Below the pieces are notes generated by a model, which was not told the origin of the DNA, did not search any database, and saw only the letters and a program-made list of their open reading frames with translations. 49,637 bases of DNA, from the IMG/VR virus record IMGVR_UViG_3300020470_000018, positions 1 through 49,637 of that record; one strand, 5' to 3'. Made by a program: the position numbers and the translations under genes. Shown one piece after another: positions 7,569 through 49,637 of this stretch. Position 1 is the first letter of the stretch. Every line of letters starts with the position of its first letter. Origin of the DNA: a virus.

Positions 7569-7572
7569 ATAA

Positions 7573-8198: not shown

Positions 8199-8208
8199 TT
8201 AACATTCT

Positions 8209-8239: not shown

Positions 8240-8244
8240 CTCTC

Positions 8245-8421: not shown

Positions 8422-8422
8422 T

Positions 8423-8656
8423 ATGTTTCATAGTAAATCATTTGGACGCATATTTTGGGTAGATCCTGATACTCTAGATTTCAAATCATGCCCACAATTT
8501 GTTGATGGGACTGGTGATTTTGACCATGTAGATTGTGTATCAGACTGGGAAGATTTAGAGGGAGTTAATATGAGTAATTTACTAGATATTCATTCGTTTT
8601 GTTTACAAAACCTATGGAATCACTCCAATTCACTAACAATTAAGGATGGACTCTAA
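8423..8656 (+). CDS. hypothetical protein (77 aa)
   Basis: Strong Shine-Dalgarno AGGTAGGA sits a few bases before the ATG. The protein is acidic with several Asp-Trp and Cys residues (D-C-V-S-D-W-E-D-L-E). The stop is followed immediately by the next ATG. No family recognised. Confidence 0.65.
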   Translation: MFHSKSFGRIFWVDPDTLDFKSCPQFVDGTGDFDHVDCVSDWEDLEGVNMSNLLDIHSFCLQNLWNHSNSLTIKDGL

Positions 8657-8965
8657 ATGACAAATTATTCACAAACTGCAAACCCAAACGCAACAAATAG
8701 TGAGTTAGATGCTAAGGTTATTATTACACCTGACCATGTAACTTTGAATCAAAATGTTAATAAGTATCCACGGTTAAATGATAATGAATGGGATGAAATC
8801 CTCAAACTAATTGATATTGAGCAATCATACATTGTAGATGGTAATGATAATGACAACGAATTTTATAACACTTTGAGACGTAAACTGTTGGCATATCGTG
8901 CAGAAGATGATATAATTAATAAACTATGTGATACACCTTATGATTCAATTCCCCAGAGGTATTAA
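8657..8965 (+). CDS. hypothetical protein (102 aa)
   Basis: Begins directly after the preceding stop, with AAGGA about 12 bases upstream. It is Asn/Asp-rich and acidic, with a helical C-terminal half (Y-N-T-L-R-R-K-L-L-A-Y-R). Function unknown; part of the 8245-9082 run of co-oriented small genes. Confidence 0.65.
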   Translation: MTNYSQTANPNATNSELDAKVIITPDHVTLNQNVNKYPRLNDNEWDEILKLIDIEQSYIVDGNDNDNEFYNTLRRKLLAYRAEDDIINKLCDTPYDSIPQRY

Positions 8966-9082
8966 ATGCTCAAACTATCAACAATCAAACAACAATCACC
9001 ACCCAAAGTAACACAAACTGTAAGAGTGCAAAGTGTGTATAACCCACCACGTATACGCAAATTAAGTATACTCAATGACTAA
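8966..9082 (+). CDS. 38-residue basic peptide
   Basis: The ATG directly follows the previous TAA. The peptide is basic, with Q-S-P-P-K-V-T-Q-T-V-R and N-P-P-R-I-R-K segments, and no motif I recognise. Its contiguity with the upstream gene supports it. Confidence 0.45.
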   Translation: MLKLSTIKQQSPPKVTQTVRVQSVYNPPRIRKLSILND

Positions 9083-9132
9083 TACATAGTTTACACAAAC
9101 TTACACATAGTACGCACGATTTTTTTCACATC

Positions 9133-9780
9133 ATGTCAACAACTGACTCACAAAAACACCCACTAAGTGATAAACTTGAAGATGTAATCACTAATGAAAC
9201 TTATGGTTTATTCCCTACACCAATAAGTAAATTTAGTGTGCCTAATCATGATGAGTTAAAGAAACAAATACTATTGTGGATGAAAGATTCACAAATACTC
9301 AAAAAACATGGAAGAGAAGGTATAACTCACAACGTAATACAAGTTGGAGAAAATAATACTTTGTTACGTGATTTACCTGATGTTGCTAATACTTTGCAAA
9401 CTGCAATTACACAGCATAATAATAACTCAATGGAGTATAAATGCGACTTAGCAGTGAATGAAAGTTACCTGGAAGTTGCTGCACAAGATGCAATTTATGC
9501 ACCGCACGAAGTATCAAATTGTTTATATCATTCTATCTACTTAATTAACTACAACCCCGAAGGACATAGTTATTACAAATGGAGAAAGAATGTAGGTAGT
9601 AATCATTATCCAATAATGCAATTAGATAGTAAACAATTAACACCTTATAATATGACTGAAGCAACATTTACTATGGCAGAAGGAGATATTATTACTTTTC
9701 CCGCAAATCTTACATTTGGTTATGATACTAACCCAACCAATGAAAGAATTACACTTAGTGCTAACATTGTCCCACAATAA
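9133..9780 (+). CDS. 2OG-Fe(II) oxygenase-fold protein, apparently inactive
   Basis: The 215-residue protein resembles phage 2OG-oxygenases over residues 120-213. P-H-E-V-S-N-C-L-Y-H-S-I-Y-L-I-N-Y aligns with the strand carrying the first metal ligands, and G-D-I-I-T-F-P-A-N-L-T-F-G-Y with the strand carrying the distal His. The usual H-x-D becomes H125-E-V, and the distal His is replaced in T-F-G-Y, while R205, the 2OG-binding Arg position, is kept. Catalysis by the standard mechanism looks impossible, so it may be a binding protein. The alignment is by eye. A conventional active oxygenase with unusual ligands remains possible. Confidence 0.55.
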   Translation: MSTTDSQKHPLSDKLEDVITNETYGLFPTPISKFSVPNHDELKKQILLWMKDSQILKKHGREGITHNVIQVGENNTLLRDLPDVANTLQTAITQHNNNSMEYKCDLAVNESYLEVAAQDAIYAPHEVSNCLYHSIYLINYNPEGHSYYKWRKNVGSNHYPIMQLDSKQLTPYNMTEATFTMAEGDIITFPANLTFGYDTNPTNERITLSANIVPQ

Positions 9781-22200: not shown

Positions 22201-25200
22201 AGTTACCATATATGGTGCAAACCCAGTTGTATATAACGGCACATTTACCGTTACATCTCGTATTGACCAGTTTACCTTCTCTTATCAGATAGCAACACCT
22301 ACAGAGATTATTCCAGCTGGTAATATCCTATTATCTGTTGACCTTAACAGAGGTAAGTCAAATATACCCTCTATTAACAAGGTTGTTAGTGAATTTACCA
22401 CTAATATTCAAAACTCTTTCTTTAACGACGATTATGTCTATGTTGCTGCCTCTGGACTACCAAACTATAAGATAGGTCCATTTACAGGGTCAGCACTCAT
22501 TCCAGGTAACCAAAGGAAGCTTCTAAGATTCCCTAGGAATGTCCAAACTATATCAGAGCGTAAAACAATTGCTCCAGGTACCCCAGTTGGTTCTTGGGTT
22601 AATGGTGTTTCTATTTGGTCTTATAAGTCAAAAGAATACGTCCAATATGGTCCTTTAACTAATATTAGTGTAACTAACACAGGTGAAGGTTATGATGCTG
22701 GTGCTAAGCCTAATGTAGAGATAACAGGAGGCGGAGGCACAGGTGCTTCTGCTGAGGTTGTTGTAAATGGTAGTCTTGTATCTTTTGATGTTACTGAAGG
22801 TGGTAGTGGTTATACTGAGTCACCTTTGGTATCAATCGTTGGTGGCGGTGGTGTTGGTTCTACAGCACAAGCAGTTATTACTGGTGGTTCAGTATCAAGG
22901 ATTCTTGTAGAGCAACCAGGCACAGGATATACTTCACAACCTAGTGTTTCTATTACAGGTGGTGGAGGTACTGGAGCAGAAGCAATTGCTAATGTCCGTG
23001 GTCCTATTTCCAGTGTTAATGTTACTAGCTTTGGTAGTGGATATACTTCACTTCCTAGTATTAAGGTTAACTCTGGTGAGAATGCTCTTGCTCAACCAAT
23101 CGTATTAAATGGTAGAATAGTTTCTATCGCTATTATTAACTCTGGTAACAGTTATACAACAGCACCTAACGTAATTATCAATGGTGATGGATTTGGTGCA
23201 ATTGCTAGAGCAACTATTGGAACCATCGGAGAAGACAAGGGTCGTGTCCTTGGCGTAACTATTCTAAACAAGGGTATTGGGTATACCCAAGGTTTAACCA
23301 CCGTTAGACTCGAAGCAGTGGGTCAATTAGCAGACTTTGAACCTACTGTCTATCAATGGAATAAAAACCTTCAATATGAATTAGCTGACAGTTATGACTT
23401 TGCAAGAGGTTATGTATTCACTGGATATAACAACCAGTTTGGTGGTGAGTATGCTCACGTATCAGACCCTAAAGAATTAAGATATGTTGTTGGAGACAAC
23501 GTATTCCTTGACCCTGTTACTCAGCAATTCCAAGAAGTTTCAGGTAACTATGACCACTCACCTATTATAGGTTGGGCATTTGATGGTAACCCAATTTATG
23601 GTCCTTATGGATATATCGATCCTACTGACCAGAATAGTGGTATCAGAAGGATGCGTACCTCATATAAGTTAAAGACTAATGTTGTATATGATGCAATTAC
23701 GAATCCTGATCCTTCTAGGGTAGATGGTCCTCCTATTGCCACATATCCTGCAGGTACTTTTGTTGATGATTATTACTATGATTTCCAGTCTGGTGACCTA
23801 GACACTTACAATGGACGTTTCTGTAAGACACCAGATTACCCAGACGGCACATATGCATACTTTATTACTATTGATTCATCTGATGCTGGTGTTTCTGAAT
23901 TCCCATATATCATGGGACCACAGTTTAACTCACTTCCTGATGATTGGAACTTCTCACAGATAGCAACACAAGAGAATATTCCTAATGGTGTTGTCCGTTA
24001 TAGAGACCCATATACTGATGTTGATATTGATGTTGACCGTCAACCAAACCAGACTGCTGATATCTTTGCTACTGAGATTGAAGGATATCCTATTATCTTT
24101 GAAATCCAAGACTCTAATAATGATGGTTTGATTGATGCTAATGAGCAACAAGAAATCCTAGAGATGTCAGAAGAGGCAACTCTACAAATCTATGATTATT
24201 TCCCAAGAGTATCAGAAGAGTCTAGAGTTGATATTGAAGTTGAAACAACTACTCAGTTTGAAAATGCTAAGATTGACGGATTTGTTATTGAAAACCCAGG
24301 CACATCTTATCAGGTAAATGACACCGTATTCTTCGATAATGAAGGTACTGGTGGATTTGGTGCTTCTGCACTTATTGAATCTGTTAAAGGTCAGAAGATA
24401 GTTGGTTACTCAAAAGAGATTATTGGTGACCGTCCTTATGGTGTTATTACCACTAGTGAGGGACATGAACTTCGTCAGCAAGATGAAATCATTGTAAATT
24501 CACGACCTGTAATTGATAACACTAATAAGACTTATAAAGTTAAGGTTGTTGCTGGTGTTGAGAGAATTGATATCACTCAAGCAGGTACAGGTTACAACGA
24601 AGATATTCCACCAACATTTGAATTGATTAGTGCTTCTGGTCAGGATGCTGCTCTAGAGTTGGTACTACTTAATACTGGACAAGTTAACGCTGTTAATATC
24701 ATTAATTCTGGTAGTGGATATGATAATGATAATCCTCCTCAGATAAGGGTATCACATCCACAGCAGTATAAGAAGACTCGTTATTGGATAACTGAGTATC
24801 TTGAGGCTGCTGGTACTATTACTATTCATGATACTTTAACCACACCTGAGCGTTACACTTATATCTGTGGTAGTGTTCTAGAGACAGATGGTGACCAAGC
24901 AGCAATTATTGCCAAATTTGATGACCTAGGCCAACTTGTTTGGGAGAGAAATCTACTTCCAACTAATTCTGGTGTTAAGAAAGCAGAATTTATTAAGATG
25001 CATCTTGACAGCAGCTTAGAGAATGATGTTATATACGTTGCTGGTCAGACTTACGATCCTAATAATAATCAGTATAATCCTGATGTATGGATAGGTAAGT
25101 ATGAGTCTGGATTTAACAATGCTAATGCTCCTGATGGTATTCTACAGTGGCAGAAATCTATTGCTGGTATCTCAGGTATTAATAGAAGGGATTGGATTAC

Positions 25201-28200
25201 CTCTATTGCTTTAGACCAAGATAAGAGAATTTACCTTGCAGGTTATACTGACAGTAATTCACCAGATCCTAACGATATGTGGATTATCCAGTGTGATTTG
25301 GATGGTGACCTTGTAGAGAAGAGAAAGATTGCATCTGCAGATGATTCTGAGATGATCAATCAGATAAAGTGGATATCCAATGATAGATTCTTCTTTGTTG
25401 GTGTCAACGATGATAATGATGATTGTATTTTCGGTGTATTCTTCTATGATGGGGCAAACCTTGAGATTGAATACATTAAGCAGATTCCAACTATCGGTGG
25501 ATATGTAAGAAATCCTCAATTTGCTATTGATGATTATGGTGATGCTATCTTGGTATGGGATGTATATAATGCAGCTGCTACCAAGTATGATAAAGTCCAA
25601 ATCAGCAAATTCCCAATTGCAACTGCAAATACTGCATGGGAATGGCAGAAGACAGTAACTATCAGTGGTAGTATTGATTCAATTAGACATGCTGGTATTA
25701 ATGTAGATGTATTTGGTAACTATTCACTTGTTACTGATGTAATTGAAAGTCAGAATCAGAGATATTCTATTATCCATTATCTCAAATATGATGGTAATAT
25801 TATCAAGGAAACAAAAGTTGATGATACTGCCAATATTGGTTTCCATGTAAAAGCACACAGTGTTGATAACTCTGGTGACCCAATTCTTGTTGTAGATAGA
25901 CAACAGTCAGATCAACTTGCTTCATATAGGTTTAATAATGCTGCTGATATAGATGAAGATACTACTAAGCAGGATCTTGCTACAGTAACATTTGGATCAC
26001 CTTCTGATGCGTCAATAGATGCTACATTTAAGAAGTTTGGAGATTCTTCACTTAAGTTGAGTGCAGTTTGTCCTGTTACATTAGGTGGTTATAATTTACA
26101 GTCAAAAGAATGGAGTTTTAGAGCTTGGTTCTCTATGACTACTGGTGCTCATAGCACTAATCATAAACCAATTATGTTTGACCTGACTCCTATAACTGGA
26201 GATTCTATTCAGGTTGAATTAGATGGAGATTCTACTAGTGCCAACTATGAGAAATTCCTAATTTATGTAAACTCTGTACAAGTAGCAATTTCATCTGTAG
26301 CAACTAACTGGACTGCATTTGGTAGTGCTGCTTGGGTGCATTTAACATTCCAGAAGAGAGAAGAATCTCTTGGATTGTATCAATATGAAGTATATTTGAA
26401 TGGTAACCTTGTATGTAACTATCAGAGCACTTCTGATATCAATCTAGCAGATATGAGTCTTGCTGGTAAAGCAGCTGGTGCTGCAAGTCAAAACTCATTC
26501 ATTGGATGGATTGATGACCTTGTATCTGATGATACTGCTCCATATAACAGCACTTATACATTACCTACTGAAGAGATTCCTGTTACTACAAGTAACTCTG
26601 ATTCTGCTCTAATCAAGTTTGATAGATTACATTCTAAGAGAGATGCATATACTATCTCTGGTCTTAGCAAGTATACAAACGTAGAATTTAGTGATATTGA
26701 AGTAGCAACTACATGGGTTGATCTTAGTCTTTCTGCAATTAGTGATTGGGTTGTTGGTGCAGGTGGTCTGCAGATACTTGATATGTCACAAGTTATTGCA
26801 ACTCTTAATGCTGCTAGTGGCACATATACATTTACTAATGCTAAGAATGAGTATGCAACTAAGACATCAACAGTACCTTCTCCTTTAGGTAAGAGACTAG
26901 AAATTACTGCTGATGTTATTAGTAAGTTCTATATTCGTGATGCTCTTTATCAGAAGATTGATAATGTAATGGAGTTTACCTTTAATCAGGATATAAAACT
27001 GACTAAGGGATCTATACTTCAACAGTTTAACGATAATGATGTTGTTACTGCATATGGTACTATTGTTAAAGTCCCTGAAGGCACTTTAACTAATCCTGGT
27101 TATGGTAACAAGTATCAAGTTGGTAAGATATACGGTACATTTAATAATACTGATCGTTATCAGACTACTGCCAATGATGTTAACCAGATTACTGGCACAT
27201 ATTTCGACACAATAGAAGAAGAATCACCATGGGCTGCTAATACAGTATATGCTCAGGGTGATAGAGTATACAGTGATAAGAAGATATACGAGGCACAAGG
27301 TGCTGGAACATCAGGTACTATTGCTCCTGTCCATACTACTGGATCTGCTAGTGATGGTGTTATTAACTGGGCATTTATTGATGATGCAGGTAAATTTACT
27401 GTTGATTTAACAGAGCATCCATATCCTAGACCTCAATGGACTGGATTAGATATGCCTGAGTGGTTGCCAGACCGTCTCTACGTCGTTGGACAGAGAGTTT
27501 GGTATAAACTTAACGTATATGAAGTTGCAAGCGGTGGAGCGGGTGTCAGTGGCACTACAGCACCTGTACATACCACTGGTAGTGTATCAGATGGTGGTGT
27601 AACTTGGACTCATGTTTCTACTGAAGAAGCAATTAGTGGATATTCCAGATTGATGGGATATGACATGGGCAATAATTATACTGTCCAGATTATAGAAGTC
27701 CATCCTGGTTCAGTATACATTCCAGATGACGTTGTTAGTATCAATGCTGGAAATATTACTTTAGCAGAAGATGAAAAATCAGTTGTAATTTCTGGATTCC
27801 AATCTGTTAAGAAGATTCGTGTTACTGCACGTCTTGAGAAAGATATTCTCAGGACAGCAGATGCAAGGACAGAATATGTCTATGCTACATCAAATAGTGC
27901 TCACGGATTTAAACAAGGTGAGATTATCTTTACTGAAGGGTTTACAACTAGTCAGTTTAATGGATCATTCTTTATTGACCAGATTATAGGATCAAGGGAG
28001 TTTACATTTGCTATTAGATCAACTGCTATAAGTGATCCTGATTTTAATAATAATGCTATTGCTAGTGTTAACATATTTGCTAAACACCCAACTTTAGAAT
28101 TTACTAAGAGTCATCAATACGTCTTTGACTTATCTGATAATTCAAACTTTGGTTATTACCTATCATTCTCTCAGGATAACCAATACAAACTAGAATACTC

Positions 28201-31200
28201 ATTCAATAATATTGAAAGGTCTGGTACTCCTGGTATTGCAACCACACCAGCTCCATTTGTTAAATTCTCTGTATTGGGTGATGTAACTAATATTTCTTAT
28301 TACTTTGACCCATCTAGGACTGGTGCTGATTCACCAGTTGGTGATAACTCCTTTATTGATGTTATCACTACTCCTTTTGATGGAACATTTACCATCTCTG
28401 AAGTACCAACTGATACTACATTCAAGTTCCCTCTACACAAGGAACCAGAAAGACAGAATGCTGAAGTTGGAACAGATGAGTTTGATAATGCGTATTCTTT
28501 CTACTCTACAACCTCAACCAGAGCAGTTGGTCCTATTAACTCGATCAAACTGGTCTCTCCTGGTGGATTCTATCAGAAACTACCCATCATCAATGATATT
28601 GCATCCTTCAGACAGATTGAGAAGATTGTAATTGAGGATGGAGGTACTGAATATGCACCTGGTGTCTATTATGATGTCCCTGTCTTAGGAGATGGTGAAG
28701 GTGCTAAAGCAACTATTACTGTTGAATATGATGAAGAGGTTGGATCTGGAACTATTACTCTTGCTCAAGTAGCAGACCCAGGTAAAGGTTATACTACTGC
28801 ATCTATTGATATTGATGCAATTCCAGGAATCTTAGGTAACACTCTTGCTGGTTCTGGTGGATCTGTAACTGTTGTTATTCCTTCAGAAGGTAGTGGTGCA
28901 TCTGTATTCCTAACAGGTACTAATATTGGTAAGATTAAGAGACTGAAGAATAATGAATTTGGTTTTGGTTATTCACATGACTATACCTTAAAACCAGAGA
29001 TTACCTTCCCTGTTAACTTACAACTCTTTAATACATCTATACTAAGTCAGATTAAGATAACTGACCCAGGTTCTGGATATACTTCTACTCCTGCTGTTGT
29101 AATTACAGGTGGTGGTGGATCTGGTGCAGAAGCAGAAGCAGTTATTAGAAATAATCGTCTGAATGAAATTATCATTAAAAATCCTGGTGCTGGATATTCA
29201 TCAGAACCAGATGTTACTCTAAAATCAGAATTTAACTACGTTGTTAACTTAGACCTTAACTATCTACAGTTTAACTTCCCACATGGTATTACAACTGGTG
29301 CTGAAGTTACATTCCGTGCTGATAATGTCGGGTCTACAGAAGGAGAGCTTCCAAAACCAAGTACTGCTGGTTTGACCAGTTTGGTTGAAAATCAGATTTA
29401 CTATGCTATTGCTGGTGAAGCAGCTGGTCTAGAAACTGACCAATTGAGATTTGGTCTTACTTTACAAGCAGCACAAGCAGGATCTTATATTACCTTCTTA
29501 ACTCAAGGTAGTGGTCGTCAGACACTTTTAACTGAGGTATTTGGTGGTAAAGCAATTGCAGTTGTTGAAACATCTCGTTTCCTTGAAGGTGAAGAAGTAT
29601 TCCAAGGGTCTGCTATTGAGACTGCTACTGCAACTGGTAAGGTATCTACAAACACTGGTTGGCAGATTGGTCCTAAGATTCTTAAGATTGTCGATTATGA
29701 TGGCGATTGGGTTGCTGGTGAGAAAGTAACAGGTGTTATTTCTAAAGCATCTGGTCTTATTGATAACCTGTCTATAGCACGTGGTGTGTTAAATATCGGC
29801 TCCCTAACGAAGACACCAGGCCGATTTATTGATGACGTTGGTAAGCCTTCTGAGATTGTCCAGAAGATTCAGGATAGTTTCTTCTACCAGAACTTCTCAT
29901 ACGTTGTACAATCACAAATTCCTATTACACAATGGAAGACACAGGTATTAGAAAATAACCACCCTGCTGGTTTTAATATGTTTGGTCAGTTACAACTGAC
30001 TGGTGGTAAGGATATATCTGGACGTAATATTGGTACAGAATTTACTAAGAAGGTTAATATTAACAGTTATACTAATGTTAACCAGATTACCTCCTTTGGT
30101 GCTGCACAACCAATCTATACTGACTACAACAATACTGAGGTTCTCTTCCGTAAGAAGCGTTTAACTTCTTCTGAGGAAATCTTAACTTCTATTGTTAAGA
30201 AGCTTGATAACTTCTCCGACCAGTTTAATGGTATTGAGAAGTCATTCCCATTAACTGTTGAGGGTGAACAAGTAATTGTTAAGCAAGACCAATTGATGAT
30301 TACACTTAACGGTGTTATTCAGTCTCCTGGTACTTCTTATCAGGTTGTTGGTGCTAACTTGGTATTCTCTGAGCCACCTAAACCACCTTCTAAGGTTAAC
30401 TATAGGACTGTTGGTATTACACCTACTCCAATCTATAGAATCGCACTTTACAGTTCTGGTGGTGGTGCTAATTATGGTATTTTCCCAACTACAGGTCAAC
30501 AAGTCCAAGGTGAATTCTCAGATGCATATGCAACTGTTATTGACTCTGGAACTAATCATATTGACGTTATTAACGTTAATGGAACCTTCCAACTCAATGA
30601 AGAGATTGTTAGAGGAGAATTATTCTCTGCTCTAGTTGAAAGTGTAACTCTAATTAACTCTGAGACCATATTTGAATTTGGTGAAGCAATTACTAACCTT
30701 GAAGGTGATACTGCTTATGTTGAAGAGACTAATATCGATAATCAAGGTAATGTTACTGATAGACTCGTTGTAAGTAAGACTTCAGGTACTCCTAGGTTTG
30801 AAACTGGTATATTCGACCTTAAACTCAACGAATACATTTATTCTGCCTCATCTAAGATTGCAGGCCAGATTACATACATTGCACCTTACACTGACCCAAT
30901 TAACGGTGAAGTTGTTGATGAATTAGTCATTAACGCTGGAACAACCTTCTTCGGATTGCTATTTGAGCGTTTAGTATCTCTAACCAATCCTAATGTCATC
31001 TTAGATGATATTTCACAGTCTTCTATCACTCCTACAGAGCTTTACAATTCTGACAACAGAATTAACGATGATTTCCTTGATTTTGAAGAAGTAAGGACTA
31101 CAGAAGTAACATATTCGCAATTAGCGAATGGTACTTTTGCAGATGGTGATATTATCCGAAATAAGAAGACATTCTACGGAAATCCCGTTTCTGTCTTCCA

Positions 31201-34200
31201 TGGAGTTGCTGCAAACAGATTCCTTGATGGAAAACGCAATATTGCAAATAATAAGCAAGAAATCATCGATTTTGCAGAAGCAAGCATTGCAATTGACTAT
31301 CCTGATTATTATTTCCCATCTGATATTATTACTAACTCTTGGAGTCGTTTTAAAGACGCATATCGTCTAATTCAGAAGAATAAGGCATTAATCGCTGGAA
31401 TGGCGTTTGATGACATGAAAACTCAATATCCTTCTTCTTCAATCCCTTCAGATGCGAAATGTAAGAGAGATATTGAATATTTGATTGATGCAATCTCTAT
31501 TGACGTTTATGCTGGTGGAAACCGTTATTCACGTAAGTTTACTCAACAATTCTTCGATTCTGAAGGAAGTTTCACTTATGTAAATGGTCAAAGTGCAGAA
31601 ACCCGTTTTGCCTTTGAAAAAGCAAGAGATAGAATGAAAGCAGCTATTGCTAACCAATATTCAGGTACAATCAATGCTGTAAACTCTGGTGACTCTTGGA
31701 CGGCATATCAAGACCTTACAATCACTGCTGACCCTTCACCTAACGATCCATACGGAACTGCTGGTTCTAACGCTAATAATCAAGATGCTGCAAACTGCAC
31801 GGACGTACAATCTACAATTGACACTCTTCATAACTTAATTAATGAGTGTTTAACTAATGCAAGTTTAACTGAGCTTCCTGGTGAAACTCAAGGCACATAT
31901 TCACCTCACCAAGAGAAGTGCCGTCGTGACCTTGGATACTTCATTGATGCTATTGCTGAAGACGTTGGACAAGGTGGTAACTTTAATGTTGTTGAATTTA
32001 CTAAGAAATTCTTCGATGATGATGGTGTCCCTCTAACTAACGGTATTGTTGGTGAAGAGGCAGAAGCAGTCCATGCATTCACTAGTGCTGGTACATTGAT
32101 GTATCGTGCGATTAATAACCTAATGTATTGGAAGGATCTCTCTGGGGTTGGATATAACCTTAATGATCCTACTACTTACTCTGGTGGTGTTGCTCCTGCT
32201 AATACTTACGATGCTAACTATGCATCTGGTAATAACCAAGATATTAACAATTGTGCAAACGTTAAGACTTATATTGATACACTAAGAGCTATTGCGACAA
32301 CCGCAATGACTGCTGGTAACCTTAATAACGTTAATGCTCTTTCTAGCGTTAATGATGGAACATTTGTTGATGGTGAAACAATCAGGACTACAAAGGTTGC
32401 TTATAAGGATCGCTCTAGAGGATTATTCGTAACTGGAGACCAAATTAAGGGTGTAACTTCTGGAGCAGTATTTAATGCAATTGGTGCTAACTCTGGTCTT
32501 AAGTGGATATTTGCAAGTGCTATTACTGGCACATTCCAAGATGGTGAATATCTCACTAATTCCACTCTAACTGCAACAAATATCACTACTAGTGTTATTG
32601 TTAAGAAACCAGAATTAAGTGGCACTAAATCTGTCTATATTCCTTCTAATGGAGTTATTACACAATCTGAAAGAGGAGACTTTGCATTTGGCACTGGAGA
32701 CTTCACATTAGAAGGTTGGTTCCGTCCTGCTGCTAATGTTGGCACACAGATGCTATTTGACTTCCGTCGTTTGAGTGCTGCTTCAGGACTCAACGTTAGA
32801 ATGGATGCACAAGAATTAAAGGTATATAACGGCACAACACAAGTTATCAATAGTGGTAACGTCTTCACAACAACTGGTACTTGGTATCATATTGTGGTTG
32901 TTAGAAGCAGTAACGTTACTCAGGCATATGTAAATGGTTCTCAGGTTGGTAGTAACTTCGTTGATAATAACAATTATCTTTATTCTGCTTTATATCTTGG
33001 TTGTGACTTTAACCAAGCAACTCATTGGACTGGTCACGTAGATAACGTTGTAGTTAAGAAAGGTATTGCTGATTATACTGCTGGATTTGTACCACAGACA
33101 CAAGTTGATTATACTCAAGATAATATTGTATTTGGTTTAGATGGTGAAGGTCCATTCATTGCTTCTACTACTGAAGTATGGGCAAAGTATAGCGGACAAA
33201 ATACAGCATCTACAACTGCTAAGAAATTAGATTATGATAATCGTGCAGTTATTGCATCTGACGTTGATTTAGGTAGATTAGAGAATAGGACTTGTGCAGA
33301 TATTCTTGATTTGAATGCTACTTGGATTGCTGAAGAAGCAGTCGGTAGGATGAAGAATACATTCTCTGATTTCACTATCCGTGGTGACGATCCTGGTAAT
33401 AATGTATATGGTGGTACCAACCTTTGTATCAGGGATACTAAGGATTACATCCTAGGTGCACTTATTAAGGATATTAGAGAAGGTGGTAATTTCCATACTA
33501 TCTTTACTGCAAGGACTTATTTAACTTCTAGTGGTAAATTAGACCATATTGCTGCTGAGATTCTTCAGTCACTTTATACTTGGAATCAGGTATTTGAGCT
33601 TTGCAACTTTGTAATTACTACAACATCTAGTGACCTAACTGGTACCTATACTACAAAACTAAGAATTCCAAATAATTTCTCATCACCTGCATCACAAGGT
33701 GTACAAGATGAGATTACTCAACTTGGTAATGATTTACTTAGGGTTATTGCTCCTAATGACCAGAGATTTAGAGAAGGTGGATTCCAACTTTGGAAGAACC
33801 GTGATTACATTGCTGAAGAAGCAGCTGGATATGTAGAAGCTAAGTATCAGAAGGAAATTAATGGTGTTAACTATGACTTCCTAACAATGCCTGGTGGTGG
33901 TAGGACAACATGTGAAAGAGATATTAAAGATTTCATTCTTCCTGCTGTAATGGCTGACCTAGTTACAGGTGGCACATATCAGACTCAAGCAGTTATCGAT
34001 AAGTATCTTGATTCACAAGATAATATTACTAGTGTAGAGGATGAGCTTAATCCAACCTTAGATGCAATTGAGCATACTAAGATGCTTTGTATGAAGGCAG
34101 TTAATAACCTATTGTTATCTCCAGGTGTTGCTGTTGCTGAATTAGGTGTTCCTGCATGGGTACAAGAAGAGTATTATTCACCAGCATATACAACAAGAGC

Positions 34201-37200
34201 AGCATATAGAGATGATACTATTGTTAAAGATACTGAAGCATATCCACAAGCAACTAGAAATGCTAATGATAGATTCTTAGATGCTGCAAGACTCATTGAC
34301 CTTAATAAGTCAGTAATTGCTAGAGAAGTTGTTGCAGTAATGAATGACTTGTCTAAGTATGAGAATCTTCAAATTCCTGGTGGTCATGTTAACTGTGAAG
34401 ATGATGTCCTTGACATGATAGATGCGATGGTTCATGACCTTCGTATGGATTGTAATGAGAAGACATACGATGCAGCAGCATTATATGTTGAGACAGAAAA
34501 TAATTCACTTAAGCACATTGAGACTGAGTGGGAAGCATCTATCACTGTAGTTAAGATATTGAGAGATGTCCTTACAATGACAATGCGTAATGCATTTGGT
34601 AGGGATTATATAGAAGGCACTGACCTTAATACTACTCCAGTACAATCTTATGAGCAGAATGCTAAGGAGACATTATATCAACAATGTGCTGATGCAATTG
34701 ATGGAAATATTAGATACATTGCAGAGCAAGCAGTTGCTGCTGGTTTAGTCCAATTCCCCAACCTTAATATTCCTGGAGGGTCATCAAACTGCGTCCATGA
34801 CGTTACTGATATTCTCAGGTCATTAGCATTTAACCTTAAGTATGGTGGTAATAACTGGTTACAGTATTCTACTGAATTCTATACAACTTATGCTGGTAAC
34901 TTAGACCACGTTACTAATGCACCTACTGAGACTAATTGGATAATGAATAAAGCACGTGATTATGCAATTCGTGCTATGAAGGGTCAGGTAATTACTAATG
35001 CTGCTGGTCATAATGTTGACCAGAGATTCTATAATGCTGTCCCAAGACCTACCAATTCTCTGAAAAATAGTGATGAGAATGGTATCATTACTGGTAGTGA
35101 AAATAATATCGTTACTAGAAACTTTAAGTTTGGTGAGGATAAGATTTCAACAACAGATACTGGCACAGGTATCATCACCGATGAGGATGCTGTATTCCGT
35201 GTTGTAACTAAACTTCCATCTACTCCAATTGATGCTTGTTTATTTGAAGCAGGTGGTAATACATCTGGTGTTTGGGTTGGTATTAGAGACAGTGGAACAT
35301 ATTTCAGACTTCGTGCTGGTAATGGTCAGAATTCATATGCTGCTGGTGCATCATATACCTCAGACACTGGTCTTGCTATGCTTGACCTACAAATTACTGG
35401 GCAATTTGCAACTTACTTCGATGATGGTGACCATGAATTAGTATGGGAGATTAAGATTGGTGGTAATCTAAGCACTGGTCCTGGTAGAATTAAACTATGG
35501 ATTGATGGAGACTTCATTGACGAAGCAGTAACTCCAGGTGGCGGTAATACTGGTCTAACTGGTGGATCTGGAATCTTTGCTAATGAGCAATGGGCTGGAT
35601 TCGGTGTATCAAATGGATCTCTAGTTTCTGGCGAGGCTGCTGGCATTAATACATTTACTGTTAATGTTGGACCTGCTCCTACTATTGCATATGACGTAAC
35701 CAACGCAGTGTATGACAGTAGCACAGGTGATCTAGAATTAAATGTAGGACATCATAACCATACTCCTGGTACTTTCCTATCTCTGGTTACAAATTCATTG
35801 AATTTCACATGTGACCAAGATGATAATGCTACAACTCATTCATATCCTAGGTCAGGAGACCCTGCAGGTAATACTTCTATAGAAGTCCTCGATGTCGGTA
35901 AGGTTGAATGGACTGCAGAGAATGCTGTATATGACCCTGAAACAGGAACTATGACTATTACAGTTGATAGTCACGGTTTAACTGATTCTACAACTCATAC
36001 TGCTACAGACGCAGCATATAATCCTGATTCTGGTGTTTTAGAAATCACCATGAGTGGTCATTCATTTAAGACTGGTGACCAAGTAAGAATTAAGAACGGT
36101 GGATTAATATTCACCTGTGCACAAGATAATCACGCTACTAAGCATGGATATCCAAGACAGAAAGACCCTGCTGGTAATCAGTGGTTGATTGTTGAAGCTA
36201 CTACCACAGAGACATTTAGTGTCAACGTTGGTATGACACCTAAGGTTGAATATGATGTATCTGCAGCAACATATAATCAGGAAGATGGCGAGCTTGAAAT
36301 GACAATCGGTCAACACCGTTTTGTTGGTGCTACCGTCCATACTGCAACATATGCTGAGTATACTGCTTCTACTGGTTGGTTGAAACTAACTGTACCTGGT
36401 CATAAGATTACTAAAGGTGAGCAAATTCAAATCATGGATAACTCCATGACATTTACTTGCTCAATGGATAATCATTATTCTAACCACACATATCCAAGGG
36501 CAACTGACCCATGTGTTGACAAGTGGTTAGATGTTGTTGAGACTGATATTCCTAACGGTACATTCACTGTTAATGTAGGTGCATCACCTATTGTTGGATA
36601 TAATGCAACTTCTGCTAACTTTAATGCTGCTAGTGGTGACCTTATTTTAACCATTGGAGACCACACTCTCCCAGTAGGAACTCATATTAAATTAGCACAA
36701 GGGTCACTATCCTTCACATGTGATATGGATGACCATGCTAGTGTCCACAAATATCCTAGAAGTGTTGACCCAGTACATAACGAGCCTATTCCAATTAAGG
36801 CTGTTACTTCTGATTCTATTACTATTAACGTTGGTCCTACACCTCAGGTTCAGTATGATGTTAGCAATGCTACTTTCACACCTGCTGATGGTCTGTTGAC
36901 ATTAACAACAGATAGGAAGTTTAGTTTCCGTGATTCTACCAGACATAGTATTAATACTGCATCTTATAATGGTCAGACTGGTTTGATGAGACTCAAGGTT
37001 ACTGACCATGGATTCTCCGATGGAGATTTCGTTAAATTAGATGATGGTGCTGTCACATTTACTTGTGATATGGATGCTAATGCATCTAACCATGCATATC
37101 CTCGCTCTACCGATCCATATAGTGGTAAGTGGATGGATGTTAGAAATGCATCTAAGGATGAATTTGATGTATATGTTGGTATGACACCAGAGATACCATT

Positions 37201-40200
37201 TGCAGTCTCTGATGCTACTTTCAATCCTAATACTGGTAGTATGGTATTGACTATCGGTGAGCATACCTTAGTAACTGGACAGAATGTTAAACTAACAGAA
37301 GAGTCAGTAACATTCCAGTGTTTCTTAGATGCTTATCAATCTGACCATGCATATCCTAGAGCATCTGGATCTAACTACGTTGGTAATGGTGGTGCTGACC
37401 CATTCTATAACAAACCAATTGCAATTGCAGCAACAACTTCTACAACTATTGAATTGAATGTTGGTGCTTCTTCAGATACTACACAACATCAGTTTGTACC
37501 TGCTGTTGGATTAACTCCAACTAATATTAGTCACAATCCTAATACAGGTCTTATGACTATCACTGTTGTTGATCATAAACTAAGCAATGGTGATTTCATT
37601 AAGATTGCTGATAATGCATTGACATTTACTTGTGCAATGGATAATCATGCAACTGACCATACATATCCACGTCCTGCAGACCCTGCTTCTGGATCATGGT
37701 TGAAAGTTTCTAACGTATCTGGTAACCAGTTTGATGTCCAAGTACTATCTGTAATCCCACAAACTAATACTACTCTTCACCTCTTTAAATCTGCTGTTGC
37801 TAACTGCATCACTAAGTCTGTTGTTAAGAGTGGTGGTGTTTACAACCATACATACGTTTCTTCTGTTGCTGACAGTCTACTTCATGCTGGAGATAGCGTT
37901 AAGATTGCACCTAATTCATTAGTATTCCGTTGTGATGAAGATGGACAGTCAAGTGACCATAGTTATCCTAGAGCTGCAACAACAACTCATACTCCTACAG
38001 ATGTATCCTACGATCCTAATACAGGACATTTAAGATTTGAAGTTGCTGGACATGGATTCTCAAGTGGTGACTACATTAAGATTGCTGATAATTCTCTTAC
38101 ATTTACATGTAAGAAAGATGATGATGCAACTGGACATACCTATCCAAGAGCAACTGACCCTGTAAGTGGTAAGTGGGTCATGATTCATGATGTTACAACT
38201 GATAAGTTTACTATTGAAGTATTAGATTCTATACCTTCTACAAATACCACAATCCATTCATTTGTATCTGCTGATGCAAACTGCATTACTCATAAGAAGG
38301 ATCACTTCTATGATACAAATATCCCTATTCATGGATTAGGCACAACATCACAAACTCCATCTGATATTACCTACGATCCAACTGCAGGTAAGATGAGAGT
38401 TACTGTTGCTGGTACTTACACTGATGCTACTGCGTATACACCTAGTGGATGTATGTTCTATCCTGCAACTGGTATCTTAAGAGTAACAAACTCTGGTCAT
38501 TCTGTTAAGAATGGTGATATGATGCTTATTAAGGATAGCACCTTAACATTCAGGTGTGATGAAGATAGTCAAGCATCTGACCATCTATATCCAAGACCAT
38601 CTGACCCAGTTAGCGGTAGATGGATTAAGGCATTTAATGTAGGTAGCACAACATATGACCTACAAGTTGGTAATGTATTAGGTGAGGCTGCTATTTCTAA
38701 CCAGACAACTCATGTCTGCACAAATATTGCTGCTGGTGCCATCCTACATGCACAAGACTTTGTTAAGTTTGACGAGAATTCAATAACATTCCAGTGCACT
38801 AAGGATAATAACGCTACTGACCACACATATCCAAGAAGGTCAGACCCAACATTTAATCATTGGTTACCTATTTCTAATGTTTCAGGTGGAGCATTTGATG
38901 TCCATGTTGGTAAGTCTGGTATTAACGATGTATACGACCATACATTTGTATCAGTTGTTGCTAATGGAATGAAGCATCAGAATGGTACAGTTATCCTAGA
39001 TGTAGGTAATGGTGCTATTTCTAATCAAACAACTCATGTATTCCAGAGTGCTACTCCTAATGCATTGACTGGTGGTGGACAGTATAATCATACATTTATT
39101 CCATCAGCAGAAACATATACACCAACTACTGCTACCTATCTACCAGCAACAGGTGTGATGACTATCACCATACCTAATCATGGATTCATGGAAGGTGAGA
39201 GTATTAAGATTGCTGATTATGGTTTAACATTCACCTGTCTACAAGATAGTAATGGTAGCGACCACTCATATCCAAGAAATACTGACCCTGTAAGTGGTAA
39301 GTGGTTGACTATTAGTAATGTAACTGATGAGACATTTGATGTCCAAGTCCTTCAGAATATTCCATCTACTAACACAACACTTCATACTTTCAAGAGAGCA
39401 GTTGCTGGATGTATAACAAGAGCAGGTGTAGCAACTGGTGGTAATTACACTCACAAATTTGTTGCTCCTTCACAGTTAACACCAACTAACGTTGCATACA
39501 ATCCAACAACAGGTATTATGTCAATAACTGTTGCTGGTCATGGACTTAAGAATGGTAGTAGAATTAAGGTACAAGATGGATTCGTAACATTTACTTGTGA
39601 CCAAGATGGTGACCAAACCAATCATGCTTATCCTAGGGCATCTGACCCATATAGTGATGAGTGGATGAAGGTAAGTAACGTCACTAAGGATACCTTTGAC
39701 GTACAAGTCCTATTCAACATTCCTTCTAGCAATACTACAACCCATACATTCGTATCTGCAGTACCTAATAGTATTACAGTTGCTACTCTATTCAAGGGTA
39801 ATGATAGTATCAAGATTGCTGAGAATGCTCTAACATTTACTTGCTCCATGGATGGCGGTAGCACAGAGCATACCTATCCACGTGCTACTGACCCTGCATA
39901 CAATAACTCACTAAGGATTATTGATGATGGTGTAACACGTCATACTCCAACTAATGCTGTTTATACTCCAGGTACAGGTAATCTAACTCTAACAGTACCT
40001 AAGCATGGATGGTCTAATGGTGATTACATCAGACTTGATGATTATGCATTGGATCTCACTTGCACAATGGATGACAATTCTGAGAATCATGCATATCCAA
40101 GAGGCACTGACCCTGTAAGTAATAAGTGGGTGCAGATTTCTAACGTTGCTACAGATACTTTTGATATCAACGTAGGCACAACCTCTGCTGTCCAGTATAC

Positions 40201-43200
40201 ACCTACTGATGCTTCTTATGACCCATATACAGGTCATGTAGAAATGAATATTGGTGCTCATCCACTTAAGGTTGGACAGAGTATTAAACTTGCTGACGGT
40301 GGTTTAACATTCCAGTGTGACTTAGATGGTAATGCAACTAACCATGCATATCCAAGGACTACTGAGGATACATTCACTCCTACTGCAGCAACCTACAGTG
40401 GTGAAACAGGATACCTTCAATTAACCATTGAAAATCATGGTATGGATGATGGATCCTATATCAAGATTGCAGATAATGCACTTTCTGCTACTTGCACAAT
40501 GGATGGCAATACAGATACTAAGACATATCCTAGGTCATCTGATCCTATTAGTGGTAAGTGGAAGAAAGTAGAAAATTCAACTGTTAATACTATTGATATT
40601 TTCGTTGGTAAATCAGAATTCACTAGTTACGACCCTCAGAATGTAGATTACAATCCTGCTACAGGTGTAATGGTAATTACTGTTGGTCCTGACCATGGAA
40701 TAGTTACTGGAGATAGCATCTACATTAACCCACTATCCATGTGCTTTACTTGTGCACAGGATGGTCATGGTAGTGACCACTTCTATCCACGTCCTAATGG
40801 TACTGGTGGTGCTACTTCTGATGACCCTGCATATCAAGATGCTGTTGATGTAACTGCTGTATCTGATAGCACTATTACAGTTAATGTAAACCCATCACCT
40901 ACTGGAGCATCTAATCACGCTCACATCTTTAAACCTTCTGTAGGTAAGACACCAACTGCAATTACTTACAGTCCATCTTCAGGTATCATGACTGTGACTG
41001 TTGTTGGTCATGGAATGGAGAATGGAGAGCAAATTCTATTTGAAGATAACTCTCTTATCTTTACCTGTGCCAAGGATGACCATGAGACAGAGCATGCATA
41101 TCCAAGACCAACTGATTATGCAAGCAACAATTGGTTGACTATTTCTAATAGGACTAATGATACTTTCCAAGTTAAAGTCTTAGATAAAATACCTTCTACT
41201 AATACCTCTGCTCATACATTTAAGTATGCTAAGAAGCAGTCAATGTTGAGAGGCACTATTAGAAAGGGTGGTTCATTCGACCATACATTTACTGCATTCT
41301 CATCTGGTGGTGTATCTCATCTAAGAGATAGAGCACATGATATGCCTCTTGAGATTCAGAAGGTTGGTAACGCTAAGTATACTGCAACTGGTGCTACATA
41401 CAATCCTGCAACTGGTATCTTACAGATTACAATCAACAACCATCCATTCTCTAATGGAAATAGAATTAAGATTGCTGACAACTCATTGATATTCACATGT
41501 GATATGGATAGCAATGCAACCAAGCATAGTTACCCACGTAAGGGTGTTGACCCATATGCAGGTAAGTGGTTGGAGATTAGCAATAAGCAGACAAACACAT
41601 TTGATGTATTTGTAGGTAAGCAACCACGTGCTAACTACCTAGTTTCTGATGGTTCATATAATCCTGCTACAGGTGATATGACCTTAAAGATTGGTCAGCA
41701 CAACTATAGAGGTGGATCACAGCATACTGTAACTGATGCTCATTACACTGCTTCCTCTGGTGTATTGAAACTAACAGTACCTTCACATGGATTTACTATT
41801 GGTGACAGAATTAAGTTAGCAGATGATTCTCTTACATTCAGATGTGAGATGGATGGTAATACTTCTAACAAGACATATCCAAGAGCAACTGATCCTAAGC
41901 GTAATAAGTGGATGGATATTAGTAATGTTACCCATGACACCTTTGAAGTTAACGTTGGATCATCTCCAATAGTTAATCACGATGTAACTACTGCTACTTA
42001 CGATCCAAATTCAGGTAATTTAGAATTGACAATTGGATCTCACACTTTAACTGTTGGTGAGAGCATTAAGATTAAGAATAATTCATTGTCCTTCACTTGT
42101 GATTTTAATGGTGATGGTAACACTACTGTTAAGACATATCCTCGCTCTTCTGGTGCTTCAACTGGTGATGGTAAGGACTATGTTTATGATACTGCTGTTG
42201 CAATTACCGCAGTAAGTGGCACAACCATTACTGTTAATGTTAATGGTGGTCAAGGTGCTATTACAGATACTACTGCTCACAACTGGTCTGGTGGCACATC
42301 AACTGCTGCTATTCAGAGTGGTGGTAACTATCCTCACACCTTCCAGTCTGCTACTACAAATGGTTTGACTGTATCACATGAAGCAATTAAGATTGCTAAG
42401 GAATCACTAGTATTCAAGTGTGCAAATGATTCATTTGCTTCTGAGCACAAGTATCCAAGAGCAACTGACCCATACTATAACACTTCAGTACCTATTATTT
42501 CTTCTACTGCTGATAGCGTTACAGTGAATATTGGTATATCTTCTGACCTAACAGAGCATAGGTTTGAAAGGTCTATTAATGCATTCACACCAACTGGTGC
42601 AACATTTGTACCTGCTACTGGTGTTATGACAGTAACAATCCCAAGTCACCCATTTGCCAATGGTGATCAGGTGCAGGTTAAAGATGGTGGATTTACATTT
42701 ACTTGCTTAGAAGATAATAATCAGACTAATCATTCTTATCCAAGAGCAAGTGACCCTGCTTCACAGAATGCATGGTTAACTGTATCTAACGTATCTGGAA
42801 ATAATTTTGATATTAACGTTGGTACATCCTCTAACACTACAACTCATACATGGGTATCTTCCTTAGATGGTGCAGTTATAAGAGGAGTTGTCCAAGGTGG
42901 TGGTGCTTATGCACATACATTTGATAGTGCAGTTGCTGATGGAATCCATTGGGAGAATTCAACAATTAGTGTCGATGTAGGTGAATCTAAAGCTAAAGGA
43001 TATGGCGTTTCTGCTGCATCCTTCGTACCTGCTACAGGTCTACTTACAATGACTATAGGTAACCATCAACTTAAGACTGGTACCTATGCGAAGATTGCTG
43101 CCAATTCAATGGTATTCCGTTGTGACCAAGATAGTCAGCAAAGTGACCACTCATATCCACGTCCTAATGGATTCAATGGTGCTACAGCAGATGACCCTGC

Positions 43201-46200
43201 GTTTAACGATAGAGTTGAAATTACTGCTGTAACTGCTGACAGTATTACTGTTAATGTTGGTACATCTTCTAACACCACAACTCACGTATTCCAAAACGCT
43301 AATAATACTTACACCCCATCATCTGCTGCTTACGACCCAACTACAGGTATCATGACTGTTAGTGCTCCTAAGGACACTAAGACAGTAAGTGGTGCTACCT
43401 ATAACCCAACAACAGGTGTGATGGTATTGACTATTGGTGCTCATACATTGACCACTGATGATACTATCAAACTGAAGCCAAATTCAATTACATTCAGTTG
43501 TGATTTCAATGGTGATGGTAATGTTTCTAATAAGTCATATCCTCGTGCTGAGGGTGCAGCAACCACTAGTGGTGCTGACTATGCTTATAATACTGCTCTA
43601 GCAATTAGTGCGGTAGACCAAGCAGCAGGAACAATTACTGTTAACGTTAATGGTGGACAAGGTGCTGTAACAGATACTTCTGCTCATTCATTCGTTTCAG
43701 CAACTGCTAATGGAGTCCTAGTTGGCAACCACTTCCAGAATGGTGAATACGTTAAGATTGCAGACAATACATTTACCTTCACATGTGAGAAGGATAATGA
43801 TACTACTAACCATTCATATCCAAGGTCTACTGACCAAGCAAGTGGAAGATGGTTGAAGATTTCTAACTGTAATGTTGATACATTTGATGTCCAAGTATTA
43901 CCATCAGTACCTTCTACTAACGTATCTAAGCATACTTTCGTATCTGTTAATGGTGCAAATGGTTTAACTAGGTCTGTAGTTACAATTGGTGGTGAGTATA
44001 CACATACATTCGTAAGTGCTACTAGCAACGCTGTAACTGCTGGTGGTAACTATACTCATACATTCGCTGCTGCTAAGAAGAATTCACTACACAGACAGAG
44101 TGGTAAGATTACAGTTGATGTAAATATTGCTCCAGACAGCACTAACAGATATGACCATACATTTGTAAGTGCTATTCCTGGTGCTGTCCAAGGTGGTGGT
44201 AATTACACTCACACATTTGTATCTTGTGATACAGGTGCTATTGAGAGAGCAAATGACTACATTTACATTAAGGATAATTCTTTAATATTCACATGTGACC
44301 TAGATGATCATAGGACACAACATACCTATCCAAGGTCTACTGATTATGCAAGTAATGAGTGGTTGGGTGTTTTCAATGTAACTTCTAGCACTTTCGATGT
44401 CCAAGTACTAAGAAATACACCTTCTACATTCCTAGGTAACCATACTTTCGTATCTGCTGAGAAGGATGGATTATGGAAGCAAACTGGCACCATACATGTT
44501 AATGTTGGACCTTCCCCTGCTGGTAATACATTCCAGCACCACTTTGTAAGTGCTAATGCTGGTGCTGTAATTCAAGGTGGTAACTATAAGCACAACTTTG
44601 TATCTGCTGCATCTAACTGTATTACAGTTACTAACGATGGAAGCACATTAACACCTACAGATGCATACTACGAGCCTGTAACTGGTCAATTAACCTTCAC
44701 AGTTGTTGGTCATACTTTAGGCACTGATGATAGCATTAGAATTGATAGTAATTCACTAACATTTACTTGCACACAAGACCAGAATGCTACCAACCATACT
44801 TACCCTCGTGTAACTGATTATGTCGATGGTAGAATTATTCCTGTCCAGCAAGTTAACTCATGGGCATGGCCTGTGCAGAGTGACCTTTCATACTATCGTG
44901 CAAGATTAGTAGATCCTGGTTATACAGGTAATGAAGCAGCTGCAGTTGAAAGTGAGATTCAGACTCTTATACAATTCGTAACTGATGGTCTAAGCAATAC
45001 TAATACTGTTGCTTCTAGAAGTTACTCAATGCCAACTATATGGCCTATTAAGTATACTCCAGAGATAGTCCAGAGAGATCTTGATATCACATATGACTTT
45101 GCATCTGGTGGTCAAGATTCTAGTGGTACATGGAATCAAACATGTCCTGAGAGTGCTGCTGCTATTAATACACTGGCAGATATCTATATCAATACTATTA
45201 GTGAGGCAGCAAATAATCAAGTTAATTACTTGACTAGTAATGTAACTAAGACATTCCCATACAATAGTAATACTGAATTCCAATCAGGTACTTGCTACAA
45301 TGTTACATCAGCAATTGATTCACTATTTGACCTAATGGGTGCTGCTCTAGGGGCTGGTGAATACAATGATAAGAATATTGCTAATATGATTCTTTGGAAT
45401 CAACAGGCAATTGCTGATAGAGCATTCGGTGAGACACAAGCTAACTATCCAACTACCAACCTTACTATTGACTTTGTAAATGATGTGCTCAAGGCATGTC
45501 GTTATGACATGATTACACATGGTAATGCTGGATCATTCAGACTTGCACAAACATGGTTTGACGGTGAAGGTAACTTCATTGCATTCCAGAATGTAACTAG
45601 GTCACACATCTTATATTGTCTGACAAAGACAAGAGAGATGATTAAGAGTGTTATGTATCTCCATACGGAAGATCCAATATGGGCTAATTATGATGTATAC
45701 ATTCCTACTGATAGACTTGAGTGGAATCAGGAAGCAGTTGAATTTATAATTGACTCTTCACTTAACCCACTAGAATATGCTTTAGAGCTTGGTAAGTTCC
45801 CAACAGAAGCAAGAGTTACATTCGTTGCATCTACTGACGCTGTTAATAGAGTTACTAAGAATGAGGTAGGTTGGGATTATAATACCGACCCTGCTCTTGT
45901 TACTCTAACACCTGAGGTAGAAGTTGGTTATGACCGTGCTGAGTATAGGATTAGAATTAATCGTGCTAACCAGTTCCGTCGTGGTGATATTCTAGAGTAT
46001 ATCCCTGCATCTGAAACTTCTCTCAGTGGTCTAACTAAACAGCAATATTTCTATTGCTTGACTGCTACTGCTGAGTGGTTTGAGGTTGGTGCTTCTTATA
46101 TCCATGATGGAAGGTTTAGATTGTTATCAGTTGATACATCCAACTCTGGATCACAGATATTTGCTGTTACCAGAAGAAGCGGTGTTACAAGGACTGCTCC

Positions 46201-48648: not shown

Positions 48649-49637
48649 ATGGCTGCTACCGCCACTATAGATAACGCTACCAAAATAATCTCAGTGAGCT
48701 CGGATTGTCTCCCTGCTCCTGTGAATTTTGGGACGTTCCCTAACGATAACAATCCTAATACTATTGTTGAGCATGATTGGGACCATAGTTTCCTATATCG
48801 TGGTGGTACATTTGGTATCACTAGAGTATTTGATGACAATCAATATACTCATGATGGATTTATTAGGTCTATCACAATATCAACAAATGACCTAACACTA
48901 TTCACTAATAATCAAATAGATGAAGGTGACCATTTGCTATTTGTATTCAGTGATGGATTAAAGAAAAAGTTTTTATATAAAGGGACTACATTCACATCAC
49001 TTTCTGGTGAGTGTTGGTTGGCAACAGACCAACGGTTAGATTTGATAATGGAGACACAGGAGTCAACTCCTGTAACTGGTACCTATGAATATTATGACCA
49101 AAGGAATGGAAGAGGAGACACACCATTAGGTGCTATTGGAGTATCTGGAAATGGTGTAATGATATTCAACCCTTCTGCTGGTTCTGGACTTAATCCTCCT
49201 TCTGGATTTAGTTGGGTTGCTGCAGGAGAGTCTACATTTGTCGATACTGGAGAGGATTCTTGTGGTGGACATCCACAGCAACAAGGGATGTATCATTACC
49301 ATGACCCTCATTTCTTAGATTGTTGGAAATCTGGATCATCTATGGCATCATATAATGATTATTATGGTGCTACTCAGTATAATGGTAATAATATCCGTCA
49401 TCCTGATGGTCATTCTAAGATGATTGGTATAGCATTTGATGGATTCCCTATCTATGGACCTTATGGATACGGCACACCATTCGATAATTTGAGTGGTACA
49501 AGACCAATGAGGACTTCATATCGTGTAAAAGATACAGAAGCACCTGGAAGACCTGATTATGGTAATACAACTGACAATCCTCCTGCAGGAACACTTATGG
49601 AGGACTGGGAATATGTTGAAGGTGTAGGAGATTTAGA
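48649..49637 (+). CDS. YHYH-domain virion protein, 3' end outside the window
   Basis: An ATG frame starts 14 bases after the giant gene stop and stays open to the window edge (329 complete codons). It contains the literal Y-H-Y-H at residues 215-218 (in Q-G-M-Y-H-Y-H-D-P-H) and the downstream hallmark I-A-F-D-G-F-P-I-Y-G-P-Y-G-Y at 261-274, defining the YHYH domain found in cyanophage and bacterial surface proteins. The giant protein has its own YHYH-like segment lacking the His motif. Likely another fibre or baseplate-decorating component. The residues before 200 form a beta-rich region I do not recognise. Confidence 0.8.
   Translation, partial: MAATATIDNATKIISVSSDCLPAPVNFGTFPNDNNPNTIVEHDWDHSFLYRGGTFGITRVFDDNQYTHDGFIRSITISTNDLTLFTNNQIDEGDHLLFVFSDGLKKKFLYKGTTFTSLSGECWLATDQRLDLIMETQESTPVTGTYEYYDQRNGRGDTPLGAIGVSGNGVMIFNPSAGSGLNPPSGFSWVAAGESTFVDTGEDSCGGHPQQQGMYHYHDPHFLDCWKSGSSMASYNDYYGATQYNGNNIRHPDGHSKMIGIAFDGFPIYGPYGYGTPFDNLSGTRPMRTSYRVKDTEAPGRPDYGNTTDNPPAGTLMEDWEYVEGVGDL

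Follow-up and report, generated by a model that had tools for sequence, protein, structure and literature searches.

The DNA analysed here, referred to below as the window, is the complete 49,637-nucleotide IMG/VR virus record IMGVR_UViG_3300020470_000018 (positions 1 to 49,637), the last 60% of which is a single open reading frame (ORF) of 9,792 amino acids (aa) belonging to a T4-like cyanophage of the Kyanoviridae type. The 'virion structural protein' profile phrog_701 spans most of this ORF in profile searches; besides LamG lectin domains and a YHYH domain, the latter a predicted Zn-dependent hydrolase (PMC7824862), it contains an array of 29 units built around an F-x-C...Y-P-R motif. The cysteine (Cys) of this motif is almost never replaced and is, on balance, probably a buried, unpaired structural thiol that locks a hairpin, within modular barrels strung along an arm in the baseplate region. 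The features of the locus are as follows.

17160..19250, + strand: gp6 baseplate wedge subunit, directly upstream of the giant ORF (phrog_219, E 5e-201)
19256..48634, + strand: giant virion structural protein, one ORF of 9,792 aa adjoining gp6 (phrog_701, E=0)
23441..23875, + strand: YHYH domain in the giant protein (PF14240, E 4.6e-27)
32681..33055, + strand: LamG/concanavalin-like lectin domain in the giant protein (PF13385, E 1.4e-20)
35690..44860, + strand: array of 29 FxC...YPR units (aa 5479-8535 of the ORF)
35690..35902, + strand: unit 1, without C-terminal strands
35909..35992, + strand: lone N-terminal half-unit (beta hairpin, no Cys)
35993..36238, + strand: unit 2
36251..36322, + strand: lone N-terminal half-unit
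36338..36586, + strand: unit 3 (AlphaFold2 pair construct; second Cys)
36599..36841, + strand: unit 4 (AlphaFold2 pair construct)
36851..36913, + strand: lone N-terminal half-unit
36944..37186, + strand: unit 5
37199..37471, + strand: unit 6
37511..37750, + strand: unit 7
37853..37975, + strand: unit 8 (Cys hairpin, alternative N-half, without C-terminal strands)
37985..38230, + strand: unit 9
38354..38413, + strand: lone N-terminal half-unit
38435..38674, + strand: unit 10
38690..38917, + strand: unit 11 (alternative N-half)
39113..39355, + strand: unit 12 (single-unit AlphaFold2 model)
39473..39712, + strand: unit 13
39782..39922, + strand: unit 14 (alternative N-half, short C-terminus)
39941..40183, + strand: unit 15 (L-x-C)
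40193..40366, + strand: unit 16, without C-terminal strands
40370..40615, + strand: unit 17 (A-x-C; Lys for His)
40628..40897, + strand: unit 18 (second Cys)
40949..41185, + strand: unit 19
41375..41620, + strand: unit 20
41636..41716, + strand: lone N-terminal half-unit
41720..41965, + strand: unit 21 (Lys for His)
41975..42244, + strand: unit 22 (CDFNGDGN loop; Lys for His)
42350..42541, + strand: unit 23 (alternative N-half)
42584..42829, + strand: unit 24
43004..43267, + strand: unit 25
43307..43369, + strand: lone N-terminal half-unit
43379..43648, + strand: unit 26 (CDFNGDGN loop; Lys for His)
43724..43906, + strand: unit 27 (alternative N-half)
44246..44413, + strand: unit 28 (alternative N-half)
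44648..44860, + strand: unit 29 (last; C-terminal strands degenerate)
48649..49635, + strand: next virion structural gene, truncated by the contig end (phrog_25852, E 2.5e-154)

The first-pass annotation had described a 29-copy repeat, and profile and motif counts agree on exactly 29 units, with Cys and YPR each present in 29/29; a 30th YPR in the ORF, at aa 2723, is unrelated to them. Since the per-unit profile E-values lie between 1e-39 and 1e-14, a chance origin of the units is excluded. The signature itself is somewhat looser than was described: F-x-C holds in 27/29 units (L-x-C in unit 15, A-x-C in unit 17), units 3 and 18 have a second Cys besides the one signature Cys per unit that had been described, and the aspartate (Asp) placed two to three residues past the Cys is found at +3 in 27/29, units 22 and 26 having a two-residue insertion there (CDFNGDGN). 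The usual histidine (His), sometimes lysine (Lys), was correctly recognized, with a spacing of C-x(8)-H in 25 units and Lys at this position in four. The N-terminal half of the unit is swapped for an alternative in units 8, 11, 14, 23, 27 and 28, the C-terminal strands are absent or degenerate in units 1, 8, 14, 16 and 29, and six lone N-terminal half-units are interspersed among the array units.

An assembly error confined to this one contig does not account for the array, since PBPH01000042.1, a Tara Red Sea contig mis-binned as Euryarchaeota, covers it gap-free, matching aa 4287-9619 at 99.4% aa identity and window 32114-48113 at 99.5% DNA identity; that contig comes from the phage studied here, or from one almost identical to it, and was wrongly placed in an archaeal metagenome-assembled genome. 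When PBPH01000042.1 is excluded, 27/29 units have their nearest relative in another phage (11 of the 27 relatives in a single IMG/VR contig, locus L167), so that the array is old and recent tandem amplification is rejected. The best matches between units within the array are only ~40-62% identical. It might still be supposed that tandem duplication merely padded out a tail-fibre-like gene with ordinary filler and that the Cys was simply inherited, and the copy number among relatives, ranging from 1 to 29, would suit this; but the low identity within the array and the outside affinities of its units indicate that the Cys outlived long independent divergence while most positions changed, and the filler explanation, already disfavoured, is very unlikely.

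Conservation of the Cys was followed in relatives whose loci were gathered by a DNA pattern scan. The pattern of the first scan demanded a Cys codon and was therefore unable to test Cys conservation alone; in a second scan, with this codon left free, Cys was present in 206/206. In the iterated profile of all loci, comprising about 870-970 distinct units, Cys occupies 865/867 filled positions (99.8%), the other columns being Pro54 (99.4%), Tyr9 (95%), Gly14 (94%), Asp58 (92%), Tyr53 (92%), Arg55 (91%) and Asp45 (87%). Among reactive residues, Cys is the only one conserved near-absolutely in the domain family that the unit defines. At position 51, with similar sequences down-weighted, His accounts for 69% and Lys for 18%, and in cultured isolates Cys is kept in 58/58 and His in 31/57. 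The single-unit phages S-RIM2, syn9, QB2 and ACG-2014a retain the Cys with Ile or Leu at the His position, while the single unit of ACG-2014b has His. Among variants in the merged set with neither Asp nor His/Lys, 92/96 retain the Cys, which is therefore independent of these proposed ligands.

These counts do not support the suggestion that each unit binds zinc, iron or calcium through C-x(8,9)-H and Asp. In its favour, coevolution suggests that Cys and His are diagonally adjacent on the same hairpin face, and the DxNxDGN loop of units 22 and 26 resembles calcium loops. However, this loop is a minority variant, His gives way to Lys in ~18-20% and is missing from most solitary-unit isolates, and no other ligand set is conserved; where a Cys/His zinc or iron site would have an invariant set of at least 3-4 ligands, Cys is the only invariant potential ligand. 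Metal binding by every unit is accordingly regarded as highly improbable. The loops of units 22 and 26 (window 41975-42244 and 43379-43648), which follow just after the Cys, are dockerin-like (DFNGDGN) and may represent a calcium loop confined to this minority.

Prediction of a unit pair and of a single unit with AlphaFold2, a check proposed with the first-pass annotation, gave a small beta-barrel with an inserted hairpin, in agreement with coevolution; from strand pairing and side-chain alternation, Cys and His would lie close to each other, yet face inward, and the His is dispensable. The predicted local distance difference test score (pLDDT) was 87 for the pair of units 3-4 and 92 for unit 12 alone, the latter with a predicted template modelling score (pTM) of 0.78. 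Strands were placed at 6-10, 15-19, 30-32, 38-41, 50-53, 64-68 and 74-78, and direct coupling analysis (DCA) of the unit family yielded coevolving pairs in agreement with them (5-19, 7-18, 39-52, 41-50, 30-64, 32-62, 35-61, 69-76, 15-78 and 17-74), of which 39-52 and 41-50 fit the predicted hairpin E38-41/E50-53. In the hairpin 38-42/50-53, Leu38, Phe40, Cys42, His51 and Tyr53 share one face, which further couplings link to the first hairpin (A7-F40, m16-L38, Y9-C42 and G14-C42). In columns 38, 40 and 42 hydrophobic residues or Cys make up at least 99%, whereas columns 37, 39 and 41 are mostly polar or small, and this strict alternation suggests that the Cys lies on the inner face.

An inward orientation would also be awkward for a Cys that is reactive or forms a covalent bond, for example a thioester or a Lys-Cys linkage, in host attachment or chain cross-linking. 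Near-absolute conservation of a single reactive residue speaks for such chemistry, as does the rank of Lys, second only to His, at the neighbouring position, but the unit has no invariant Gln, Lys or Asn partner and a covalent role seems most improbable.

In Foldseek searches of the predicted structures in BFVD, the fold of the unit pair recurred at TM 0.81-0.87 (lowest E 1.7e-17) in structural proteins of cyanophages, among them the baseplate wedge initiator of S-SSM7, whereas neither the pair nor the single unit had a PDB match at E<0.001. The FCCH barrels of UBA1/UBA6 were weak structural matches (TMq 0.41-0.44, E 1.0-3.2, none <0.001), and the PF12195 endosialidase beta barrel reached at best ~15 bits against the units (E 0.011-0.024), below its 35-bit cut-off. 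Barrels of the PF12195 and FCCH types have the HG..GD.V.I strand pair in common with the unit and lack the Cys hairpin, which seems to be an insertion. Profile-profile comparison with Cys-free HGL..GD domains, based on 4 template sequences, was weak (40-81% over 18-19 columns), and an iterated search drifted into the Cys family. The FCCH and PF12195 matches suggest, without proving it, that the unit is a small barrel of FCCH/endosialidase-like type into which a Cys hairpin has been inserted. Weak BFVD matches of the pair to eukaryotic-virus proteins, namely of Marseillevirus LCMAC103 (E 3.6e-3) and Ectocarpus virus EsV-1-91 (E 0.12), may be due to chance.

In the proposed model, each unit forms a small beta-barrel about 82 residues long that is predicted to fold independently; its HG..GD.V.I meander takes up an additional beta-hairpin (columns 37-54, F-x-C...Y-P-R) after strand 3 and before strand 4. 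The Cys would close the first strand of this hairpin on the inward face, aligned with Leu/Ile (i-4) and Phe (i-2), and would pack the hairpin as a lid onto the barrel, jointly with the invariant Pro and, from the first hairpin, the conserved Tyr and Gly. Asp+3, His/Lys, and the Arg and Asp of YPRxxD would then form local turn and salt-bridge networks with no metal. A packing motif fits because the sole equally invariant residue, Pro, is without side-chain chemistry. The units may be beads in a long modular arm of a giant baseplate-wedge-region protein with LamG and YHYH domains, copy number setting the length or spacing of the arm, presumably for contact with the host surface.

Several points weigh against this proposal. 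A merely buried Cys usually drifts to Ala, Ser, Val or Thr, so that conservation at 99.8% is unusually strict, to a degree for which burial does not account. Burial itself is deduced from alternation and coevolution, and the couplings to the near-invariant columns C42 and P54 depend on few outliers. Units with the alternative N-half retain the Cys though they lack Tyr9 and Gly14, and a part for the arm in host contact is likewise a deduction.

The extreme conservation of the Cys, and its location at the hairpin end, would also be consistent with disulphide bonding. Solitary units and copy numbers of 1, 7, 13, 15 and 29 argue against unit-to-unit disulphides along the chain, and no fixed second Cys is found in the merged unit set; disulphide-linked repeats would be expected to have Cys that pair inside each unit or that add up to an even number over the chain, whereas most units have one Cys, and solitary units and odd-numbered arrays occur. 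Alternatively, inter-chain disulphides, as first suggested, or inter-domain ones might stiffen or lock the arms in the mature virion. Other domains of the giant protein also have recurrent Cys, and virions with extensive disulphide networks are known, as in the sheath, tube and baseplate of Agrobacterium phage Milano (PMC10811340), likewise a contractile-phage virion whose baseplate has functionally important Cys. The Milano disulphides have, however, been mapped between subunits, whereas the present Cys is predicted to face inward and has no known pairing partner or partner chain, and its retention in single-unit proteins and in odd unit numbers is hard to reconcile with pairing. Such bonds are considered unlikely, as is the broader idea that the Cys is chemically active in the virion and that inter-chain disulphides or other thiol cross-links act there as a switch or lock for very long baseplate arms once the phage has left the reducing host cell. 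The buried structural thiol is preferred, and a single 85-aa unit could serve to probe why the Cys cannot change.

The unit family is widespread in cyanophages, yet no Pfam entry, solved structure or described role was found. Profile searches revealed no Pfam or NCBIfam family covering the unit (no real match in NCBIfam, spurious matches only among PDB sequences), and no description of the repeat or of the giant-protein structure was found in the literature library searched. The absence of a named family was thus correctly anticipated, although the signature had already been captured, in phrog_1276 (unknown function) and phrog_701: all 24 units tested match both at E<0.01, and phrog_1276 matches 29 stretches in the C-terminal half of the ORF. 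PHROG 1276 (325 aa) and PHROG 701 (6136 columns) were built from whole proteins with no function, fold or unit described, and the present ORF exceeds the PHROG 701 profile in length and, in unit number, every isolate counted. In the collection searched, the unit is carried by 331 cyanophage records (329 in a second count), and many marine metagenome contigs carry it as well, the array homologues being found only in phages named Synechococcus phage, Prochlorococcus phage, Cyanophage or Marine virus. A cellular origin was rejected: of the 29 stretches from the genome collection, most lie on phage-type marine contigs that had been binned from metagenomes, and two single-match stretches have no unit by profile. 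In tail fibres of the cyanophages S-T4, ACG-2014f and S-CAM7, a related domain, 'FPDG', shares the barrel pattern, the F-x-C position and the VNVG end, and keeps the Cys, but is without Asp+3, His and YPRxxD, its loop often being C-x-x-G-G or FPDG.

Proteins with the unit, up to 9,792 aa long, are encoded in the baseplate region of phages infecting Synechococcus and Prochlorococcus. In S-SM1 and P-HM1, as here, the giant gene directly follows gp6. The S-SM1 gene SSM1_102 (T4-GC969) is 18.5 kb long, lies between gp6 and gp9 and encodes 2 units, and its product has been detected by mass spectrometry in purified virions (PMC3037559). Presence of the protein family in the virion is thereby shown for this homologue. 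Instead of the simple fibre first envisaged, the present ORF encodes a giant of the baseplate wedge region. The same unit is present in the 'gp7 / baseplate wedge initiator' of P-HM1, P-SSM2 and S-SSM7, a name also given to homologous genes elsewhere. 'Gp7-like' is a positional label, since T4 gp7 itself is absent from cyanomyophages, where it appears to have been replaced by VrlC (PMC7029224). The gp7-type wedge core domain PF23786 matches 41 residues of the giant ORF at E 3.4e-4, with a score of 20.6 bits against a cut-off of 27. The isolates examined have 1 to 20 units in proteins of 4446 to 8573 aa, compared with 29 units in 9792 aa here, and array length provides a natural series for probing the role of the arm in adsorption.

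Two genome-collection entries carry the unit under bacterial names. Five units occur in a giant structural protein of cyanophage type encoded by an 8-kb stretch of NZ_RMVE01000006.1 (188,235 bp, 'Nonlabens xiamenensis strain 1Q3'); the contig, comparable in size to a cyanophage genome, may have contaminated this bacterial assembly. Unit arrays also occur in QCLS01000003.1 (189,106 bp), from the single-cell assembly of Prochlorococcus sp. AG-418-C09; this contig is probably the genome of a cyanophage inside or attached to the cell and offers a possible host link.

Elsewhere in the giant protein, helical repeats at window 31250-35150 and 45000-45700 (aa ~4000-5300 and 8600-8800) have recurrent Cys of their own, in the motifs C-x-x-D[IVL] and NCEDD / DCADV, and most phages with a single unit have this beta unit placed between two of these Cys motifs. 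Upstream of the baseplate genes, window 290-9777 contains two DNA methyltransferase-like genes, endonuclease V (denV), a helicase fragment and a 2OG-Fe(II) oxygenase.

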